A stretch of DNA of 24,790 nucleotides from a virus: the IMG/VR virus record IMGVR_UViG_3300031603_000257, positions 1-24,790 of that record; one strand, written 5' to 3'. Below are positions 1 through 19,368 of the stretch, one piece after another (positions within the stretch are counted from its first letter, which is position 1; each line of letters begins with the position of its first letter). The notes under the pieces were generated by a model. That model was not told the origin of the DNA. It was given only the letters and a program-made list of their open reading frames with translations, and searched no databases. The position numbers and the translations under genes were made by a program.

Positions 1-59
1 TGTTGAATGCCTTATTTAGTGTGATTCAGGGATATAGAACATGTCCATGCCATCGACAT

Positions 60-87
60 GACACAAAAACATGTATATATTTGTGTC
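60..87. repeat. Inverted repeat, 8 bp stem
   Basis: GACACAAA at 60-67 is the exact reverse complement of TTTGTGTC at 80-87, with a 12-base AT-rich loop. The same word family returns nearby as TTTGTGTC around 155-162 and ACACAAA around 214-220. Confidence 0.6.
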
Positions 88-267
88 AGAAATCGACACG
101 TTTCATAGGTAGATAGTGGGGATTCATCCTGACTTGGAGCTCATGAAACATAAGTTTGTGTCTCATATATCGGTCATTATGAGCCACAACGGGATTAGTG
201 CGTCATATACCATACACAAACTAAAGGACATTCTATAGGACAATTCGTTCCTTACGCGACATTTATC

Positions 268-282
268 GCGACATCGTGTCGC
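268..282. repeat. Inverted repeat GCGACA-TCG-TGTCGC
   Basis: A perfect 6 bp stem (268-273 with 277-282) closes a 3-base loop. CGCGACAT also occurs just upstream, and related CGACACG words continue to 360. Confidence 0.55.
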
Positions 283-318
283 TAAAGGACGTATATCGGT
301 ACACGTCTCGGGGTCATG

Positions 319-362
319 TCGCCCAGGACGACACGTAAATTCGCCTAGGACGACACGTAAAT
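319..362. repeat. Tandem 22-bp direct repeat
   Basis: Two adjacent 22-base units (319-340 and 341-362) differ at a single position (C or T at the sixth base). Each contains the core GGACGACACGTAAAT. They are directly abutting, like a two-copy iteron or a recent tandem duplication. Confidence 0.75.
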
Positions 363-374
363 CACATGATCATG

Positions 375-462
375 GGGAATATATTTTACCGTAACGACAG
401 TAAATTGGAGATAAAGGGAATATATTTTACACTAACTGGGAGATGAGGGAAGATATTTTACC
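375..462. repeat. Three copies of GGGAATATATTTTAC-like repeat
   Basis: The copies start at 375, 416 and 447 (third copy GGGAAGATATTTTACC). Copies one and three are followed by an inverted GTAAAT, so TTTTAC...GTAAA(T) could form hairpins. Spacing is irregular (41 and 31 bases). Confidence 0.65.
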
Positions 463-583
463 TTAAGAGCGGTAAATCCTCATGCACAGTCTTTGTGCAC
501 TAATCTATATAATACACAATACTTATCATTAAATGTGCACAGGATCGCGTTAGACTCGATCTTATGCAAATTAAATAACCGAG

Positions 584-613
584 AATCGGCTCAAGAATGG
601 CTCAATCGGCTCA
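584..613. repeat. Three copies of AATCGGCTCA
   Basis: AATCGGCTCA at 584-593, AATGGCTCA at 596-604 and AATCGGCTCA at 604-613. The word was not noticed elsewhere in the tract. Confidence 0.6.
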
Positions 614-618
614 GAACC

Positions 619-700
619 TTACCACTATTGGTAACCTTCGTCTATGGATCTCGCCAGTTTGGCGAGTAATTGGCGAGATAGCTATCCGGAAACTTTCCGG
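619..700. repeat. Cluster of three hairpin-forming inverted repeats
   Basis: TTACCA/TGGTAA at 619-624 and 629-634; CTCGCCA/TGGCGAG at 650-656 and 660-666 with a further TGGCGAG at 671-677; CCGGAAA/TTTCCGG at 686-692 and 694-700. Each stem is perfect and each uses an unrelated word. Confidence 0.65.
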
Positions 701-829
701 GTATTCTAGATGGGTTTCCGGGTAATCGGGGTATTTGTACCAATAAGTAGGTATTCTATTACCAATCCTGGGAAAACTGATAATAGATTGGTAGTTTGTA
801 CCAACATACTGGCACGTCGTGGCAGGTTT

Positions 830-861
830 AGATCCGTGTGGATCTTTATACTAATAGTATA
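830..861. repeat. Two adjacent palindromes
   Basis: AGATCC-GTGT-GGATCT at 830-845 is followed at once by TATACTA-A-TAGTATA at 847-861. Both stems are perfect. Confidence 0.6.
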
Positions 862-890
862 ATAACGTTCACAATACTAAACACTAACCC

Positions 891-945
891 GGTTAATGTC
901 CGGGATGTTGGATGTTAACGGACATATAGGGGTTAATGTCCGTTA
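891..945. repeat. Direct and inverted GGTTAATGTCCG repeat
   Basis: GGTTAATGTCCG occurs at 891-902 and 931-942. Between them TAACGGACAT (916-925) is the exact inverse of ATGTCCGTTA (936-945), giving a 10 bp stem with a 10-base loop. This is the longest stem in the tract. Confidence 0.7.
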
Positions 946-1104
946 TAATGCACCTTACAGACTATATCAAAAGTATATAGGCTACTATTCATCATGACTG
1001 ACGAGATAACCTCATATCGGGATCGATATTCATCACGTATTAGGATTTAGCTTCGGTGTAACCTTCGGAGAAAACTTCGGTGAAAGATGCTAACAGTCTT
1101 CTTA

Positions 1105-1128
1105 ATGCTTATATGCTTATATGCTTAT
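1105..1128. repeat. ATGCTTAT microsatellite, three copies
   Basis: Three perfect tandem copies of the 8-base unit ATGCTTAT. The stop codon and last codons of the leftward gene ending at 1117 lie inside the repeat, so copy-number change would alter that protein's C-terminus. Confidence 0.75.
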
Positions 1129-1356
1129 ATCGTTTGACCAATGTAGCTTGTGCTCCTCATTATGGTTCAGGTGCCTACTGATCTTGCCATGTCGTTCTAA
1201 TAGCATCGCCCTCTGTAGTTCTTCCTCGGTATAGGAGATAGGAGTGACCGCCGCGTTGGGGGCGTAATGTACGTAGCTAGTACCGTCCGTAGCACTGGTC
1301 CCAGTAGACGTCCATGATACTCCAGTACTATCACTACTGCTGTTTATCCAGGTCAT
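1117..1356 (-). CDS. Hypothetical small protein, Ser/Thr-rich N-terminus
   Basis: A 79-residue protein of no recognised family. Residues 1-40 are rich in Ser, Thr and Gly and look disordered; the C-terminal half is charged and His-rich, with a probable helix around EEELQRAMLLERHGK. The ATG at 1356 overlaps the stop of the upstream gene as TGATG; a TTG one codon earlier is possible but less likely. It is the last gene of the leftward operon and its stop lies within the ATGCTTAT repeat. Unlike the four neighbours above it, it does not carry the PSxY[LM] tail. Function unknown; reality rests on tight operon packing. Confidence 0.5.
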   Translation of the reverse strand: MTWINSSSDSTGVSWTSTGTSATDGTSYVHYAPNAAVTPISYTEEELQRAMLLERHGKISRHLNHNEEHKLHWSNDISI

Positions 1357-1568
1357 CAATCCGCCAGGTAATCCGAAGGTTTGACTACGGGCTTGGCCGG
1401 TTCGCCGCCCCCTATAATCACACCTAAGGCTTTGGCTGTCTCGTGGGCATGCCGGGCAGCCATCTCTTCGACCGTCTCACGTGCGAGCTCGTGCCATGCT
1501 CCTGTTCCATTAGCAATATCTTCTAGCTTACGCGCTCTCAGGTGTTCCTCTCTACTAGGCTCTCTCAT
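1356..1568 (-). CDS. Hypothetical small protein with PSDYLAD tail
   Basis: A 70-residue, mostly helical and charged protein (residues 1-48) followed by a Gly/Pro/Val linker and the C-terminal tail KPSDYLAD. No family is recognised. GGAG seven bases before the ATG is a good ribosome site, and the start directly follows the TAA of the upstream gene. The tail matches those of three other unrelated proteins in this operon, while the bodies do not match, which suggests a short linear motif added to different proteins. The last codon's bases overlap the start of the downstream gene. Probably an early or accessory protein. Confidence 0.65.
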   Translation of the reverse strand: MREPSREEHLRARKLEDIANGTGAWHELARETVEEMAARHAHETAKALGVIIGGGEPAKPVVKPSDYLAD

Positions 1569-1820
1569 TTAATTCTCCACTAAGTAGCTGGAAGGTCGGT
1601 CGTGCTTCGGCTCTACGTTGTAGATCCTGACCTTACCAGAATGTATGATTTCACTATTACCGTGATATCCATTTTTAAAACGTATCTCCCCGTTCGTACT
1701 GTCCACTTCCATGTAAGTCCACTTGGACAGACAGGGAACAGGTTCCTCGTTAAGGTAGATGTCGTACTGATCTAGCTTACGTCGCCAGCCTGGTTCGTTC
1801 TTGTCAATTACTAGTTTCAT
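1569..1820 (-). CDS. Hypothetical small protein with PSSYLVEN tail
   Basis: An 83-residue protein with beta-rich character (alternating hydrophobic and polar stretches, several Tyr and Trp) and the C-terminal tail RPSSYLVEN. It has no motif I recognise. Its ATG overlaps the stop of the upstream gene as ATGA, so the two are probably translationally coupled. The tail aligns with those of the genes at 1356, 1817 and 2129. Its serine codons (TCC AGC) differ from those used at the same positions in the neighbouring tails, so the likeness is not simply a copied piece of DNA. Confidence 0.65.
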   Translation of the reverse strand: MKLVIDKNEPGWRRKLDQYDIYLNEEPVPCLSKWTYMEVDSTNGEIRFKNGYHGNSEIIHSGKVRIYNVEPKHDRPSSYLVEN

Positions 1821-2077
1821 TCGTCCAAGTAGGCGCTGGGTCTAGGTCTAGGTCTAGGCGTAAGCTCGCTTAACTGGGCACTTCCTCTGACTGATTTAAT
1901 GTCCCTAAAGGTGACGTGTATCATCTCGAATGGTCCTATAGTCCGAGCAGTCACACCCGTAACTCTCAGTGGCTCCACGTACTGCTTATGTAAAGAACTA
2001 CCGGGAGGGAAGTACACCATATCACCAATGTCCGGTGGATCTTCGAACACGTATATATCTTCAGAAATTCTATTCAT
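1817..2077 (-). CDS. Hypothetical small protein with (RP)n-PSAYLDE tail
   Basis: An 86-residue protein. The body (residues 1-70) is beta-rich, with DIGDMVYFPPGSS and LRVTGVTARTIGPFEMIHVTF resembling a small barrel or KOW/SH3-like fold, though this is only a visual impression. An Arg-Pro repeat encoded by a TCTAGG hexamer repeat (1841-1858) leads to the tail RPSAYLDE. AAGGA six bases before the ATG is a good ribosome site. There is a short gap of about 50 bases to the upstream gene. Function unknown. Confidence 0.65.
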   Translation of the reverse strand: MNRISEDIYVFEDPPDIGDMVYFPPGSSLHKQYVEPLRVTGVTARTIGPFEMIHVTFRDIKSVRGSAQLSELTPRPRPRPSAYLDE

Positions 2078-2128
2078 TACTGTTCCTTACGTCACAGCTG
2101 GTGAGTAGCCTCTTATACCTATAGTATA

Positions 2129-2338
2129 TCACTGTGCGGAATCTTCCATGTAGCTAGAAGGCTTAGCCCTCTCCAGAGGTACCCTGGCCATCTGGTATTT
2201 GATCTGATGTTCGTCACATCTGTCGTTGTCACATGATATCACCAAATCCGAAGGGAGCGTACCCACGAACTTATGTACATACATAGCATGCCCGCATTTA
2301 CTGCAGGCTACGGTGGCTAGTAGTGCGTATTCCATCAT
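2129..2338 (-). CDS. Small zinc-ribbon protein with PSSYMED tail
   Basis: A 69-residue protein with cysteines 12, 15, 36 and 41 in a CxxC...CxxxxC arrangement, typical of a small zinc ribbon. It is a paralogue of the gene upstream: both share C-N/D-x-x-x-C-x-E-H-x-I-K-Y. This copy continues past the common end with ERAKPSSYMEDSAQ, which contains the tail motif; the paralogue stops before it. The start overlaps the upstream stop (TGATG); two consecutive ATG codons are possible starts. Binding of nucleic acid or protein is plausible for such ribbons but cannot be shown here. Confidence 0.7.
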   Translation of the reverse strand: MMEYALLATVACSKCGHAMYVHKFVGTLPSDLVISCDNDRCDEHQIKYQMARVPLERAKPSSYMEDSAQ

Positions 2339-2520
2339 ACCTTCCTCAGTCTAGTCCTCGGTAGGTGATACTTAATATTATGCTCTTTACATTTAGAGTT
2401 GTTACACCACATCACCACTTCTTCCGGGTCTCTGATCTTCTTAGTATCCAATAAAGGAGTCCGTGCCATATCGGAATAGCACACGGAACACTTATTATCT
2501 AATTGATACGAATAGCGCAT
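2335..2520 (-). CDS. Small zinc-ribbon protein, tailless paralogue
   Basis: A 61-residue protein with cysteines 11, 14, 39 and 44 forming a zinc-ribbon pattern, ending in the basic run RTRLRKV. It is clearly related to the next gene downstream (2129-2338) over the whole ribbon, but lacks the PSxY[LM] tail. A TGCCATAAC motif lies 31 bases upstream of its ATG on the same strand, and AGGAG precedes the start, so this gene may begin its own transcript within the leftward operon. Confidence 0.7.
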   Translation of the reverse strand: MRYSYQLDNKCSVCYSDMARTPLLDTKKIRDPEEVVMWCNNSKCKEHNIKYHLPRTRLRKV

Positions 2521-2577: not shown

Positions 2578-2904
2578 TTAGAACTTGTCTACGTTACTGC
2601 CGTTGTCATTTAGCAAGTATCCGCCAAGGTCGGCAGCCACTACTAACGGAGTGCCGTTACGTCTGCAAAAAGCAAATGCTATTCCGGTTGTCTTGGAGGA
2701 TCCCCATGGATCGTGACTTAATACATCCATCACGTCGTGACAATGTGTCTTGGCGAAGGTGTCAAACTCTTCCTTGGTCAGTACCTCGTAGAATATCTCA
2801 GGCGTCTCGATGCCGTCCACGTATCTCCAATGGGTTTGGTACGAGTCATACTTTTGGCTTGTTACTTTGGATTCGATTCGGGTAGTGCGTACTTTTAGTA
2901 TCAT
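2578..2904 (-). CDS. Hypothetical protein, first gene of leftward operon
   Basis: A 108-residue protein of mixed alpha/beta character with no recognised family. Residues 40-70 are helical and acidic; the C-terminal third (residues 75-98) is hydrophobic and beta-like. AGAGGT lies seven bases before the ATG, a strong ribosome site. A TGCCATAAC motif lies 75 bases upstream on the same strand, so this is likely the first gene of the leftward transcript. It contains GGYLLND near its end, a faint echo of the tail motif, but it lacks the PS pair and I do not count it. Confidence 0.65.
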   Translation of the reverse strand: MILKVRTTRIESKVTSQKYDSYQTHWRYVDGIETPEIFYEVLTKEEFDTFAKTHCHDVMDVLSHDPWGSSKTTGIAFAFCRRNGTPLVVAADLGGYLLNDNGSNVDKF

Positions 2905-14667: not shown

Positions 14668-15824
14668 TGGAAATAGCCAAGAACATACTAAAGAGTAGTT
14701 CAGTACTCCCATCCCTGGGAGTGTCAACCGCAGCCTTAGCCGCCAACGCGGCAGTCAGCGCCGGCTCTGGGGTTAACATGGCAGGGGAAATCCTGTTCCC
14801 TAATATAGCCACGTCTGCGCTTATAGGTAGTGGCGTTGGATTCTTAGGTAGTAAGGGTGGAACCTTTACTGGTATGTTTGGATATAAGTCACTATTACGT
14901 GGTATAGAAAAACCTAAAGATATGCTCACGGCAGGTGGTCTCATGCTACCAGTCATAGAAGCTGCAGCACGTCTCAGTGTCAAGGCTGGAGCTAAAAGTT
15001 CATTCGCAGTAGGAGCTGCTAGTATTAGACAACTCGGAGTTAGTGGGTTATTCGGTAACCTCGCAGCCGGTATCCCGGGGTACTTCAATACTCTAGGCAA
15101 TAACGAATTACTATCCAAGAGTGTTTTAAAGATATTTAACGAAGTTGGTATTAGCAACGTCAAAGCCCCGTTGAAAATAGGCAACAAGTATTCTATGTAT
15201 ACCATGCAGGAAGCTATAAAGAAAGGTGTCTCCAAAGACGCCTTCATAGCTGGGATTACTAAAGCCAAAGGTACCAGCGCAAAGCCTGGTATGAAAGCCA
15301 TAGCTTCCAAACTTAGCGGTGTCGGGTCCAAAGGCATAGGATCCGCTTATACTCTGCTAGAGAATATATCGAAGAGTAAGATATTTAGATTCATGGCGGG
15401 AGCAGCAGGACGTGATTTAGACGATGTACTATCTAATTTTAAGATAGTCGAAAAGACAGTAGGGCAGGGAACACATAGATTCCTATCTCTTAAAGGCGCA
15501 GCATCCCCGGCGTTCTTAAAAGGCGGGAAGATAGCCATGGGAATTAACATGGTCAACCTGGTAATGATAACAGCAATGGCAGGGAACGCCGCTATATATG
15601 GCGGTGGTAAATTACTAGAAGGTGGCGCAGCCGGACTTGCATATGGTGTAGACCAGGCAATGCAAGCACAGAGATTAGATTTAGGATCGGGAAGAATGAA
15701 CCCAGTCTACATGAGCCAGGGCGCTCAAACAGAACGGCAACGTGCGATAAAGGCTATTTATGGAGCCAAAGTCAATCCGTCACAGCGTATGTTTGGGAAC
15801 GAAGGCCGGAATATGCACAGATGA
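14667..15824 (+). CDS. Gly/Ala-rich, membrane-type protein
   Basis: A 385-residue protein rich in Gly, Ala, Ser and Lys. Hydrophobic small-residue stretches occur near 12-35, 45-65 and 285-315 (MGINMVNLVMITAMAGNAAI), separated by basic amphipathic segments. It resembles the preceding protein in composition rather than in clear sequence. Large Gly/Ala-rich proteins near phage packaging genes may be internal head or ejection proteins that enter membranes, but no family is recognised. The ATG shares one base with the preceding stop, and its stop overlaps the intein-like gene as ATGA. Confidence 0.65.
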   Translation: MEIAKNILKSSSVLPSLGVSTAALAANAAVSAGSGVNMAGEILFPNIATSALIGSGVGFLGSKGGTFTGMFGYKSLLRGIEKPKDMLTAGGLMLPVIEAAARLSVKAGAKSSFAVGAASIRQLGVSGLFGNLAAGIPGYFNTLGNNELLSKSVLKIFNEVGISNVKAPLKIGNKYSMYTMQEAIKKGVSKDAFIAGITKAKGTSAKPGMKAIASKLSGVGSKGIGSAYTLLENISKSKIFRFMAGAAGRDLDDVLSNFKIVEKTVGQGTHRFLSLKGAASPAFLKGGKIAMGINMVNLVMITAMAGNAAIYGGGKLLEGGAAGLAYGVDQAMQAQRLDLGSGRMNPVYMSQGAQTERQRAIKAIYGAKVNPSQRMFGNEGRNMHR

Positions 15825-16570
15825 TAGTCAGCTATAAGACAGATATAGTTCTGGCTGATGGCAGCTTTCGTCCAGTATCAAGACTTACAGATAAGACATA
15901 CAAAGGATGGGCATACCTAGATGGTGAATTTGTCCATACCGACATAACAGCCACGGCAGTAGGGGAGCAGAAGATATACCGCCTCCGCTCACATACAGGT
16001 CGCGTACTGGATATTTCAGCAGATTCATCTATACTACAAGAAGACGGGAACTGGCTAGACCTATCGAGCGTGTCACACACTACTCGAGATAAAGACTCAG
16101 TGATGTCGAACGTAGAGAAACCAATCGCGGAACTAGGATTATTCAAACACTTCGGAGACGAAGACAGGGATATGCACTGGGTACGCACGGTTAAACGTAG
16201 TTGGTTCGCAGACCCAGAGTACCCAGAGGATGTATCTTCATATTTAGGTGAACTAAATGAGACCGTACTGGGAGACCTACTCAAGCATAAATACTATACT
16301 AGCTCTAAACTACGGCTAAGTGACAGCCTGTCTCGTAATAGACTATTTCATCTACTCTCCAGGCTAGGTGTCTACTCTTACTCCACGAAGGGAGCATCGA
16401 CTAACAGGGCTGCCATATACATTCAAGGGGGAATACCTCCTACCAATCAGACATGGCACGCGGGCCAGATCTACGAGTTTAGTAGTTCATTCGTGGTACC
16501 CGCGTACGAAGTCCATAGCTCCCACGGAAACTTACTCGAAAAGAACTTCCTATGCCAAACAACCAAGTAG
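15821..16570 (+). CDS. Free-standing degenerate intein-like (Hint) protein
   Basis: A 249-residue protein that reads like an intein with no host protein around it. Residues 7-21 (TDIVLADGSFRPVSRL) match intein block A, but no Cys or Ser lies at the expected first position, which falls about at the start Met. Residues 57-83 (SHTGRVLDISADSSILQEDG) match block B with the T-x-x-H changed to S-x-x-S. Residues 165-190 (RLSDSLSRNRLFHLLSRLGV) resemble the end of LAGLIDADG-type intein endonucleases. Residues 225-247 (VPAYEVHSSHGNLLEKNFLC, then QT) match blocks F and G, with Cys-Gln in place of His-Asn. Splicing therefore looks unlikely. It overlaps the terminase start by 19 bases. Confidence 0.65.
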   Translation: MIVSYKTDIVLADGSFRPVSRLTDKTYKGWAYLDGEFVHTDITATAVGEQKIYRLRSHTGRVLDISADSSILQEDGNWLDLSSVSHTTRDKDSVMSNVEKPIAELGLFKHFGDEDRDMHWVRTVKRSWFADPEYPEDVSSYLGELNETVLGDLLKHKYYTSSKLRLSDSLSRNRLFHLLSRLGVYSYSTKGASTNRAAIYIQGGIPPTNQTWHAGQIYEFSSSFVVPAYEVHSSHGNLLEKNFLCQTTK

Positions 16571-19368
16571 ATCCATTATCCTCATTTACCGAGGATGAAC
16601 TAAAAGTACTAATAGACAACCCAGACATCTGGGCTGAGACGTTTCTACAGGATCCTACTACTCCTACCCAGCAGCTAAAACTTAGATGGTATCAGCGTAA
16701 TGTATTAAAAGACCAGAGTCAGCGCCGTGTATTACGTATGGGACGTCGCTGCGTTGCCGCCGCGGATACAATATATACCCCCCACGGACCTTATCTGTTC
16801 GAAGATCTCTTAACGGAGCATCCTCCTATATGGACATTAAATACAGACACCTATACCATAGAGGAGACAATAGACTACGATGTTTCCTCTAATGGAGAAG
16901 TAGAAACTGTAAAACTAGAAACAATAAGTGGGAAAAGACAACAAGTCTCACTTGATCATCCATTCCTAGTTTATACCAACAATGGGCCTAATTGGATCGA
17001 AGCCAAAGATATACAGCCTGGAATGCGCATCGCGGTACCTCGCGGGCTTATCAGAAAAGGCACAGCCCATGGAATAGATAAAGTTGCAAAAATAGCAAAG
17101 ACTTTAGACAGCCATAGTATATACTCAGCACTGTCCTGTGATGTACTATGGGAACCAGTCAAGTCCGTTACCCCCAGCGGGAAGACTCAGACAGTAGACC
17201 TACACGTACACAATACGGAAACCTTTATCGGTAGTGATATAATTTCACACAATACAGGAAAAACAGCTGTACTAGGAATTATAGCTCTATTCCAGGCCAT
17301 GACTTACAAACAACGCCAGGTACTAATAGTAGCCGCGTATGATGCACAGGTACAGGAAATCTTTGAACAAATGCTCCGTATGGCAGAGGGATCCCCCCTC
17401 GTAGGACCGTCGATAAATCGTACCCGTCAGCGCCCATTCGAGATCTGGTTTAGAAACGGATCTCTAGTTCGCGGTATGGTGGCCAACAATACTGTTCGTG
17501 GTAAATGCTTAGCATCTGGAACCAGAGTAATGGTAGAGGCTCAGCAGAATAAAGCTATCGAAGAGCTAAAACCAGGTGAGCTGGTAATGACAGTTAACAT
17601 GGAAACTGGTGAAACCGAGATGAAACCAGTAGTAGCTTTGCATAACAATGGTATCCGAGAAGTATTCGAACTCAGCACTACGTCTGATAGAATCATTAGA
17701 GCGACGGAGGGGCATAAGTTTTATCTCTCTCACGGGAGAGGATGGACAGAACTTAATGATATAGTATCTGCCATGGAGAGTGAAGATAATGCAGACTACG
17801 TAGCTATCAACACAGTATCTACCGGTCTTAGGTTTGGCAGGGTAAATCGTATAAAAATCATAGGACAACTTCCTACCTGGGATCTCGAGGTAGAAGACAA
17901 CCACAACTTTGTCGCATTCGAACCTGACATGGATCCGGCTAAAAGTGGATTCTCCGCAAGTGGAATGGCCGACGGGGGGTTCCTGGTTCATAACTCAGCT
18001 CACATGCTCATCATGGATGAGATCGACTTTGCCGATCAGAAAGCGCTTATGGAAGCTGTCTGGCCTGTAGCTACCACGTGGAGAACCACAGAGGTAGTAA
18101 TGTCATCGACGCCATCGGGACGGCGTGAATTCTTCTGGAAGGTATGTAACAACCTCAAGGAATACAAGTTCGAAGAACATCACTATCCGTCATCCTACTC
18201 ACCTGAATGGACGCAACAGAATGAGGCGTTCGCTAGAGGTACGACCACTAAGTCACAGTATGATCACGAGTACTTAGCAGAGTTCGGTGAATCTGCGGAA
18301 GGTGTGTACAGACATGACCTAGTAGATCAGGCTATGTACGCATACGAGTATGACCAATTAGAATACAATCCAAATAACTACTACACACTGGGTGTTGACT
18401 GGAATGAAGCATCCTCCGGAGTCCAGGGAGTTATCATGGAATGGTTGATAGAACCTGTGAAGATGTATAAATACAATCCTAAGATGGATAAGATAGACGT
18501 GAAGCACACGAGAGTGCAGCATAAGTGGCGCATCTTCCGTACATTCACCATAGATGCAGTTGACTACACCAACATTACAGCCATCGACGAGATACTCGAT
18601 TGGATGAAGAAGGTACCACTCGCATACGCCTGCTTCGATCGTGGCCATGGCTACACCAACTACGAGCTCCTGAGGGTATCTATTCAAAGAGGCGTCACTG
18701 CCAGTGGAAAGAAATGCCCAGGATTAATAGACATGCTTCCTAAGATGGAATCCGTAGACTTCGCAGTTCCATTCGAAATCATAGATCCAACTACTAACAT
18801 ACCTACCAAGTCTAAGACCAAGAATGTAATGGTACGTAACTCTGTTCGTTATCTAGAAGGTAACAACATGTGTATACCCGCGGTAGCGTTGCCGGCAGAC
18901 TGGCCACAAAGTGCGGACATACCACAGAGCTATAAGATTGTAGAGAATGATCAATACCGTCTTATCGGCCAGATGCGCGACTACCGAGTAGAACGTATCG
19001 GAGATAAGGGTGAAGTTTATTCAAAGGGCAATGACCATAGGTTAGATGCCTGGATCCTCGGACTTCATGCATTCCTACTAAACAAAGATCTATTGATGCA
19101 CTGGGCCAATGCAGTCCACGCAGAGTTTGCTTCTGATAACATCACCCCTAAGTCCCACATCAACAGGGCCCCTGGTAGCCCTAAGAAGAAGGGAGTCTCT
19201 GTGAAAAGTTCTACGAGTAGAGATGGAGTGACACACAATTATATGGGGAAGTATGCCGGACCAGGAGAACCGCCTGATTCAGAAACACTACCCGGAAGGC
19301 GAAAGATGTCAGAACACATAAGCCGCGGTGCAGTACGCGGACGTATTAACAAGAGACGAGGACTTTAA
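16552..19368 (+). CDS. Terminase large subunit with two mini-inteins
   Basis: A 938-residue precursor; removal of both inteins (residues 67-234 and 319-481) leaves 607 residues, a normal terminase size. Rejoined parts give Walker A as RMGRR+TGKTAVL, then VRGK+SAHMLIMDEIDFAD with Walker B (Asp489, Glu490) and the coupling motif SSTPSGRREFF. The RNase H-like nuclease shows Asp616 (TLGVDWNEASSG), Asp696 (ACFDRGHG) and Asp828/Asp832 (GNDHRLDAWILG). The enzyme drives DNA into the prohead by ATP hydrolysis and cuts concatemers. The C-terminal 70 residues are basic and disordered. The gene follows the orphan intein-like gene and precedes an unknown protein and the portal. Both inteins interrupt the ATPase active site, so splicing is needed for activity. 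Confidence 0.95.
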   Translation: MPNNQVDPLSSFTEDELKVLIDNPDIWAETFLQDPTTPTQQLKLRWYQRNVLKDQSQRRVLRMGRRCVAAADTIYTPHGPYLFEDLLTEHPPIWTLNTDTYTIEETIDYDVSSNGEVETVKLETISGKRQQVSLDHPFLVYTNNGPNWIEAKDIQPGMRIAVPRGLIRKGTAHGIDKVAKIAKTLDSHSIYSALSCDVLWEPVKSVTPSGKTQTVDLHVHNTETFIGSDIISHNTGKTAVLGIIALFQAMTYKQRQVLIVAAYDAQVQEIFEQMLRMAEGSPLVGPSINRTRQRPFEIWFRNGSLVRGMVANNTVRGKCLASGTRVMVEAQQNKAIEELKPGELVMTVNMETGETEMKPVVALHNNGIREVFELSTTSDRIIRATEGHKFYLSHGRGWTELNDIVSAMESEDNADYVAINTVSTGLRFGRVNRIKIIGQLPTWDLEVEDNHNFVAFEPDMDPAKSGFSASGMADGGFLVHNSAHMLIMDEIDFADQKALMEAVWPVATTWRTTEVVMSSTPSGRREFFWKVCNNLKEYKFEEHHYPSSYSPEWTQQNEAFARGTTTKSQYDHEYLAEFGESAEGVYRHDLVDQAMYAYEYDQLEYNPNNYYTLGVDWNEASSGVQGVIMEWLIEPVKMYKYNPKMDKIDVKHTRVQHKWRIFRTFTIDAVDYTNITAIDEILDWMKKVPLAYACFDRGHGYTNYELLRVSIQRGVTASGKKCPGLIDMLPKMESVDFAVPFEIIDPTTNIPTKSKTKNVMVRNSVRYLEGNNMCIPAVALPADWPQSADIPQSYKIVENDQYRLIGQMRDYRVERIGDKGEVYSKGNDHRLDAWILGLHAFLLNKDLLMHWANAVHAEFASDNITPKSHINRAPGSPKKKGVSVKSSTSRDGVTHNYMGKYAGPGEPPDSETLPGRRKMSEHISRGAVRGRINKRRGL
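16750..17253 (+). mobile_element. Mini-intein 1 in terminase, inserted in Walker A
   Basis: Residues 67-234 (168 aa). It starts with Cys67 and ends in His233-Asn234, followed by Thr235. Block A is CVAAADTIYTPHGPYLFEDL; block B contains VSLDHPFLV with His136; block F is VDLHVHNTETFI; block G is DIISHN. It is too short to hold a LAGLIDADG endonuclease, so it should splice but not move by itself. The insertion point is between GRR and TGKT of Walker A. Confidence 0.92.
17506..17994 (+). mobile_element. Mini-intein 2 in terminase, inserted before Walker B
   Basis: Residues 319-481 (163 aa). It starts at Cys319 (CLASGTRVMVEAQ), has block B IRATEGHKFYL with Thr385 and His388, block F TWDLEVEDNHNFVAFE, and ends FLVHN with Asn481, followed by Ser482. 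An extra loop of about 20 residues (DMDPAKSGFSASGMADGG) separates blocks F and G. There is no endonuclease domain. It differs strongly from intein 1, so the two probably arrived separately. Confidence 0.92.

Follow-up and report, generated by a model that had tools for sequence, protein, structure and literature searches.

A C-terminal peptide shared by unrelated small proteins of an uncultured tailed phage and its possible role in docking

Why should four neighboring phage genes whose protein bodies are unrelated end in nearly the same 8-residue peptide? The question is raised by a 24,790-base record of a tailed phage in IMG/VR (IMGVR_UViG_3300031603_000257), which was analyzed over its whole length and which we call the window. 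Here, a compact group of small open reading frames (ORFs) at positions 1117-2904, encoded on the strand opposite to that of the head module and in several cases joined by ATGA overlaps, includes four overlapping or adjacent genes (ORFs 1356, 1569, 1817 and 2129; Table 1) whose products share a short C-terminal tail. The core of this tail is [KR]PSxY[LM], followed by an acidic residue within one to two positions and then by zero to four more residues. It sits near the C terminus without being flush with it, as two to five residues of varied sequence follow the core leucine or methionine. The linker before each tail (left of the hyphen in Table 1) is rich in proline, glycine or charged residues. 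The reading of the tail that we favor is that of a docking peptide; the evidence for the tail itself is given first, and this reading is then weighed against its alternatives.

The tail set in the window

The likeness of the four tails is far beyond chance. Among the 187 window ORFs of at least 35 residues, [KR]PSxY[LMIV] has four matches, one at the C terminus of each tailed ORF, and the more general [KR]x[ST]x[YFW][LMI], sought in the last 22 residues, is matched four times against 0.09 expected. When the C-terminal 18-mers of the window were scored in pairs, the six pairs among the four tailed proteins took ranks 1-6 of 561. The four make up a clique in which the weakest pair scores 26. Sets of four taken from internal 18-mers of the same genes reached at most 20 (6,623 draws), and shuffled C-termini, the control proposed in the initial annotation of this DNA, at most 19 (2,093 shuffles). 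As a yardstick, the proven sliding-clamp tails of phage T4 gp43, gp55 and gp33 score 30, 24 and 21 by the same measure. The reading frames, coordinates and tails are exactly those that the initial annotation had given.

The tails are not synonymous-site copies of one another, and it is the peptide rather than a recent DNA copy that has been kept. The motif serine is encoded by TCG, TCC, AGC and TCT in the four genes, as previously noted; the core leucine by CTG, TTA and TTG, the methionine by ATG, and the lysine or arginine by AAA, CGA, AGA and AAG. Third positions agree at only three to four of six sites for each pair of tails.

The bodies to which the tails are attached are likewise distinct, as had been claimed: once the tails are removed, the only BLASTP similarity among the bodies is that between ORF 2129 and its neighbor ORF 2335 (33% identity, E 3e-8), and there is none among the four tailed bodies. 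ORF 2129 has two cysteine pairs and is zinc-ribbon-like, with weak matches to zinc ribbons in Pfam and PHROGs. Its paralogue ORF 2335 has no tail and serves as an internal negative control; the tail therefore does not simply come with membership of the zinc-ribbon family. The body of ORF 1569 is beta-rich in a weak single-sequence AlphaFold2 model, in which the final residues have a predicted local distance difference test score (pLDDT) of about 30, and the models of ORFs 1569 and 1817 are poor overall, with a mean pLDDT of 46.8 for one and 58.1 for the other. The coding score of ORF 1817 is weak, and a codon-usage gene caller missed this ORF; AAGGA lies upstream of its start, and it overlaps the start of ORF 1569 as ATGA.

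A second tail set in a relative

The window is a 25-kilobase (kb) fragment of the genome of its phage, which is uncultured and probably large. Its portal protein falls in PHROG 9232, and its closest relatives by this protein are contigs in IMG/VR that reach 198 kb; alignment of the portal against 84,980 prokaryote genomes found no relative. One of these contigs, the 198-kb IMGVR_UViG_3300031603_000001 (hereafter G002), has a portal 55% identical to that of the window and carries a tail set of its own. Its tailed genes are four members of a run of five successive called ORFs, and their tail codons vary. The cores start 14-18 residues from the end, with 8-12 residues of varied sequence after the core leucine. 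The tailed bodies show no convincing similarity to one another or to the window bodies, and none of these proteins has a credible family in Pfam or PHROGs. A search with G002 ORF 70491 and a G002 CobT-like protein matched G002 alone.

The two sets recognize each other. A profile built from the window's four tails only places KPSDFLVE first of 55,349 G002 positions, with a score of 18.1 against 10.9 for the next, and a profile built from the G002 tails only places KPSDYLAD and RPSSYLVE first and second of 6,881 window positions. The earlier claim of selection on the peptide, as opposed to recently copied DNA, is supported both by the differing synonymous codons and by the same arrangement on other bodies in G002. 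The G002 set closes a leftward unit whose other genes include those for a RecD2-like helicase, a ribonucleotide reductase, a primase and a polymerase.

An IMG/VR scan for the pattern KPSD[FY]LV[ED] returned 13 records, with a C-terminal tail and siblings in G002 only. Two candidates were rejected. In G003, a terminase fragment with RASAYMDDD matched the profile and appears, from its sequence, to be the end of an exon at an intein junction. In G006, PSGYLE occurs in a single gene and so makes no tail set.

Table 1. Tailed ORFs, untailed neighbors and other features of the window and of G002
Record	Feature	Coordinates	Strand	Length (aa)	C-terminal end or core	Tail codons	Remark
Window	ORF 1356	1356..1568	minus	70	...GGGEPAKPVV-KPSDYLAD	1359-1382	
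Window	ORF 1569	1569..1820	minus	83	...NVEPKHD-RPSSYLVEN	1572-1598	
Window	ORF 1817	1817..2077	minus	86	...LTPRPRP-RPSAYLDE	1820-1843	
Window	ORF 2129	2129..2338	minus	69	...PLERA-KPSSYMEDSAQ	2132-2164	
Window	ORF 2335	2335..2520	minus	61			paralogue of ORF 2129; no tail
Window	ORF 1117	1117..1356	minus	79			last ORF of the operon carrying the tails; no tail
Window	ORF 2578	2578..2904	minus	108			upstream ORF; no tail
Window	region downstream of the operon	1-1116					no convincing gene; short direct repeats
Window	direct repeats, TCGCC[CT]AGGACGACACGTAAAT	319-362					two copies
Window	direct repeats, GGGAATATATTTTAC-like	375-477					three copies
Window	direct repeats, GGTTAATGTCCG	891-957					two copies
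Window	ORF just ahead of terminase	15821-16570		249			starts MIVSYKTDIVLADGSFRPVSRL
Window	terminase large subunit	16552-19368		938			
G002	ORF 69956		minus		KVRDFLITN near end		
G002	ORF 70491		minus		KLSDFLVVE near end		
G002	ORF 71003		minus		KITDFLVHE near end		
G002	ORF 72638		minus		KPSDFLVED near end		
G002	family A DNA polymerase	95054-98002					
G002	four Pro-Phe-ending ORFs	131643, 135885, 136927, 156616 (record coordinates)	minus				

Some further features were observed outside the tail sets. The terminase large subunit of the window has two separate stretches resembling Hint or intein-splicing domains, at residues about 90-234 and 316-435, and the ORF just ahead of it looks Hint-like by eye and has no Pfam match. 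The roughly 1.1 kb downstream of the operon holds the repeats listed in Table 1. In G002, the family A DNA polymerase ORF has an N-terminal stretch resembling uracil-DNA glycosylase (UDG; Pfam UDG E 9e-11, residues 1-104).

Weighing the readings

Because four unrelated neighbors are alike in their tails and G002 has its own set with a matching tail, we consider docking probable: the tail would be a short linear peptide read by one common partner and carried by unrelated small proteins that are themselves probably non-structural. The peptide would take the form [KR]-[P/aliphatic]-[S/T]-[D/S/A]-[Y/F]-[L/M]-x(0-2)-[D/E] and would be held out, at the C terminus of several unrelated small proteins of one phage lineage, by a linker that is charged or rich in proline. 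Each body would perform its own job, and the tail would bring the protein to the partner, a phage or host protein that may offer a small hydrophobic groove flanked by charge. We infer that the tail would bind protein, that it would have a single partner and that the shared aromatic-leucine pair and the acid would make the contact. The anatomy of the core, with a basic residue, a proline or aliphatic residue, a serine or threonine, a Tyr/Phe-Leu/Met pair and an acid, looks like that of a short docking peptide. The carriers are presumably non-structural early or middle proteins, given their strand in the window and the position of the G002 set at the end of a unit with replication genes.

Several observations weigh against docking. 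The tail feature is found in two phages only: 35 other related records, together about 2.4 Mb, showed no comparable set in a scan that chose ORFs crudely by length and misses some small genes, such as G002 ORF 71003. Homologues of the tailed bodies were sought and not found: none for ORF 1817 in IMG/VR, none for ORFs 1817 and 2129 in eleven relatives, and none that is credible for ORFs 1356, 1569 and 2129 in 50,697 phage records, while Pfam and PHROGs gave no credible family for ORFs 1356, 1569 and 1817. The G002 tails also depart from those of the window, in that the serine is not kept in KVRDFL and the tyrosine is replaced by phenylalanine. Finally, the G002 set was picked by eye from about ten genomes, so that its own statistic, a local clique of four scoring 22 against a null maximum of 21 (626 draws), is partly post hoc. 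For this reason the cross-profile comparison is the fairer test.

Two alternatives would leave the peptide without a function of its own. Recent copying or gene-end recombination could have spread one 3′ end among neighbors, and it would account for the adjacency of the genes and for the stretch CCTTC[CT]AGCTAC that ORFs 1569 and 2129 have in common at the DNA level. We nevertheless regard it as very unlikely, since the tails use both TCN and AGC serine codons, three leucine codons plus methionine and two arginine codon families, the paralogue ORF 2335 lacks the tail, and the distant relative G002 carries the same core on other bodies. The peptide could also be a by-product of the ribosome-binding sequence for the next overlapping gene: GGAG, the ribosome site ahead of the start of ORF 1356, is part of the tail DNA of the preceding ORF 1569, and the genes overlap as ATGA. 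To this we give almost no credence, as ORF 2129 is tailed although 51 bases separate it from the next start, ribosome sites are weak at two other junctions, the conserved [KR]PSxY lies upstream of the ribosome-site position, and in G002 a further 8-12 codons follow that for the core leucine.

The remaining alternatives give the tail a function of another kind. If it were read as a degradation or processing signal, by a protease of the phage or a protease adaptor of the host, it would set the lifetime of the proteins or allow them to be trimmed, which would suit its place near the C terminus of small proteins and the L-x-E/D-like stretches of several tails (YLVE, YLDE, FLVED). C-terminal degrons such as ssrA, however, end flush in non-polar residues, whereas here the residues after the core vary in number and sequence and the recognition residues are not flush; nor would a protease site need the conserved [KR]P[ST] part. 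We think this reading unlikely. A tag directing cargo into the prohead or another shell, comparable to encapsulin targeting peptides or T4 internal-protein signals, would likewise be a short C-terminal element on a flexible Pro/Gly linker of unrelated small proteins, but T4 capsid targeting sequences are N-terminal, the window genes lie on the strand opposite to the head module, and the G002 set ends a leftward unit with replication genes, all of which makes packaging distinctly improbable. There is also a small chance that the tail is the counterpart, in this lineage, of the T4 gp43/gp55/gp33 C terminus and tethers small proteins to a sliding clamp on DNA. The architecture is as in T4, the G002 tails have a DFL plus acid core, and zinc-ribbon-like bodies would suit a nucleic-acid site. 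Against this, the G002 tails do not stand out when scored with a profile of the three T4 tails (7.3 at best, ranking third among C-termini), and the same profile fails to single out the window tails, which fall outside the top six. A gp45 C-domain, a PCNA N-domain and a DnaN middle domain were all looked for in G002 and none was found, although the T4 positive control for gp45 worked, and both the family A polymerase (ending KVHTIKLEKAA) and the sigma-like protein (ending SSRVINKLT) of G002 are untailed. A G002-encoded clamp of recognized type is thus unlikely as the partner, which may instead be a host protein, another phage hub or an unrecognized clamp.

Docking is therefore the reading we retain. 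The initial annotation had spoken of a docking, localization, stability or processing signal; that interpretation is supported in part, with a docking-type signal as its best form. More tentatively, and with less confidence than doubt, we propose that one C-terminal peptide acts as a general tag bringing fast-changing, unrelated small proteins to a single partner, that new ORFans could become useful by gaining it, and that neither motif nor partner corresponds to a docking system described so far. The majority of small phage genes are ORFans that come with no testable hypothesis. A tag common to unrelated ORFans implies a single place of action, and one peptide pull-down would be enough to find their partner. 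If this is true of other genomes as well, ORFans could be grouped by partner simply by scanning for C-termini shared within a genome; by pair score, the proven T4 clamp tails are weaker than the window set.

Comparison with known systems

Shared C-terminal docking peptides are already a known kind of element; the sequence of this motif and the set of proteins that carry it are new. Neither motif, carrier set nor partner was found in the open-access papers searched. Encapsulin cargo is loaded through targeting peptides (PMC10960027). As in the window, a short tag brings cargo proteins to one receptor; the difference is that no shell-cargo gene pair was seen here and the tailed genes lie opposite to the head strand. 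A possible likeness to the C-terminal peptide of FtsZ was set aside, as the DIPxFL core is absent.

The C-terminal tip of SSB (SSB-Ct) is likewise a short docking peptide on a disordered linker. It differs in having a flush PF end and in linking one protein to many partners, whereas the tails described here end variably, lack PF and would link many proteins to presumably one partner. None of the called window proteins ends in PF. In G002, all four called proteins that end in Pro-Phe have a preceding acidic stretch (EDDDDEMPF, DEMEEAPF, YENDIQPF and DDEPLPF). Since SSB is one of them (Pfam E 8e-34), the remaining three look, by sequence, like mimics of the SSB tip. A similar acidic-PF pattern is present on three proteins of G006.

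The closest likeness in layout is to phage T4, and it runs counter to the earlier statement that no system of this kind had been described. The DNA polymerase gp43, the late sigma factor gp55 and the co-activator gp33 bind the sliding clamp through C-termini that are hydrophobic and acidic, highly similar to one another and interchangeable, and the gp55 tail sits on a divergent flexible linker (PMC2988020). In the T4 record these tails read PSLDFLYEAND for gp43, and NTLDFLL and ASLDFLFG for the other two proteins. Both the window and G002 share with T4 a hydrophobic and acidic peptide near the C terminus of several unrelated proteins of one phage, and the G002 tails share in addition a D-F-L core with an acid (SDFLVE compared with SLDFLYE). 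Here, in contrast to T4, the carriers are adjacent small ORFans. The tail thus appears to be built like the T4 clamp tails in its layout while probably being a motif distinct from theirs.
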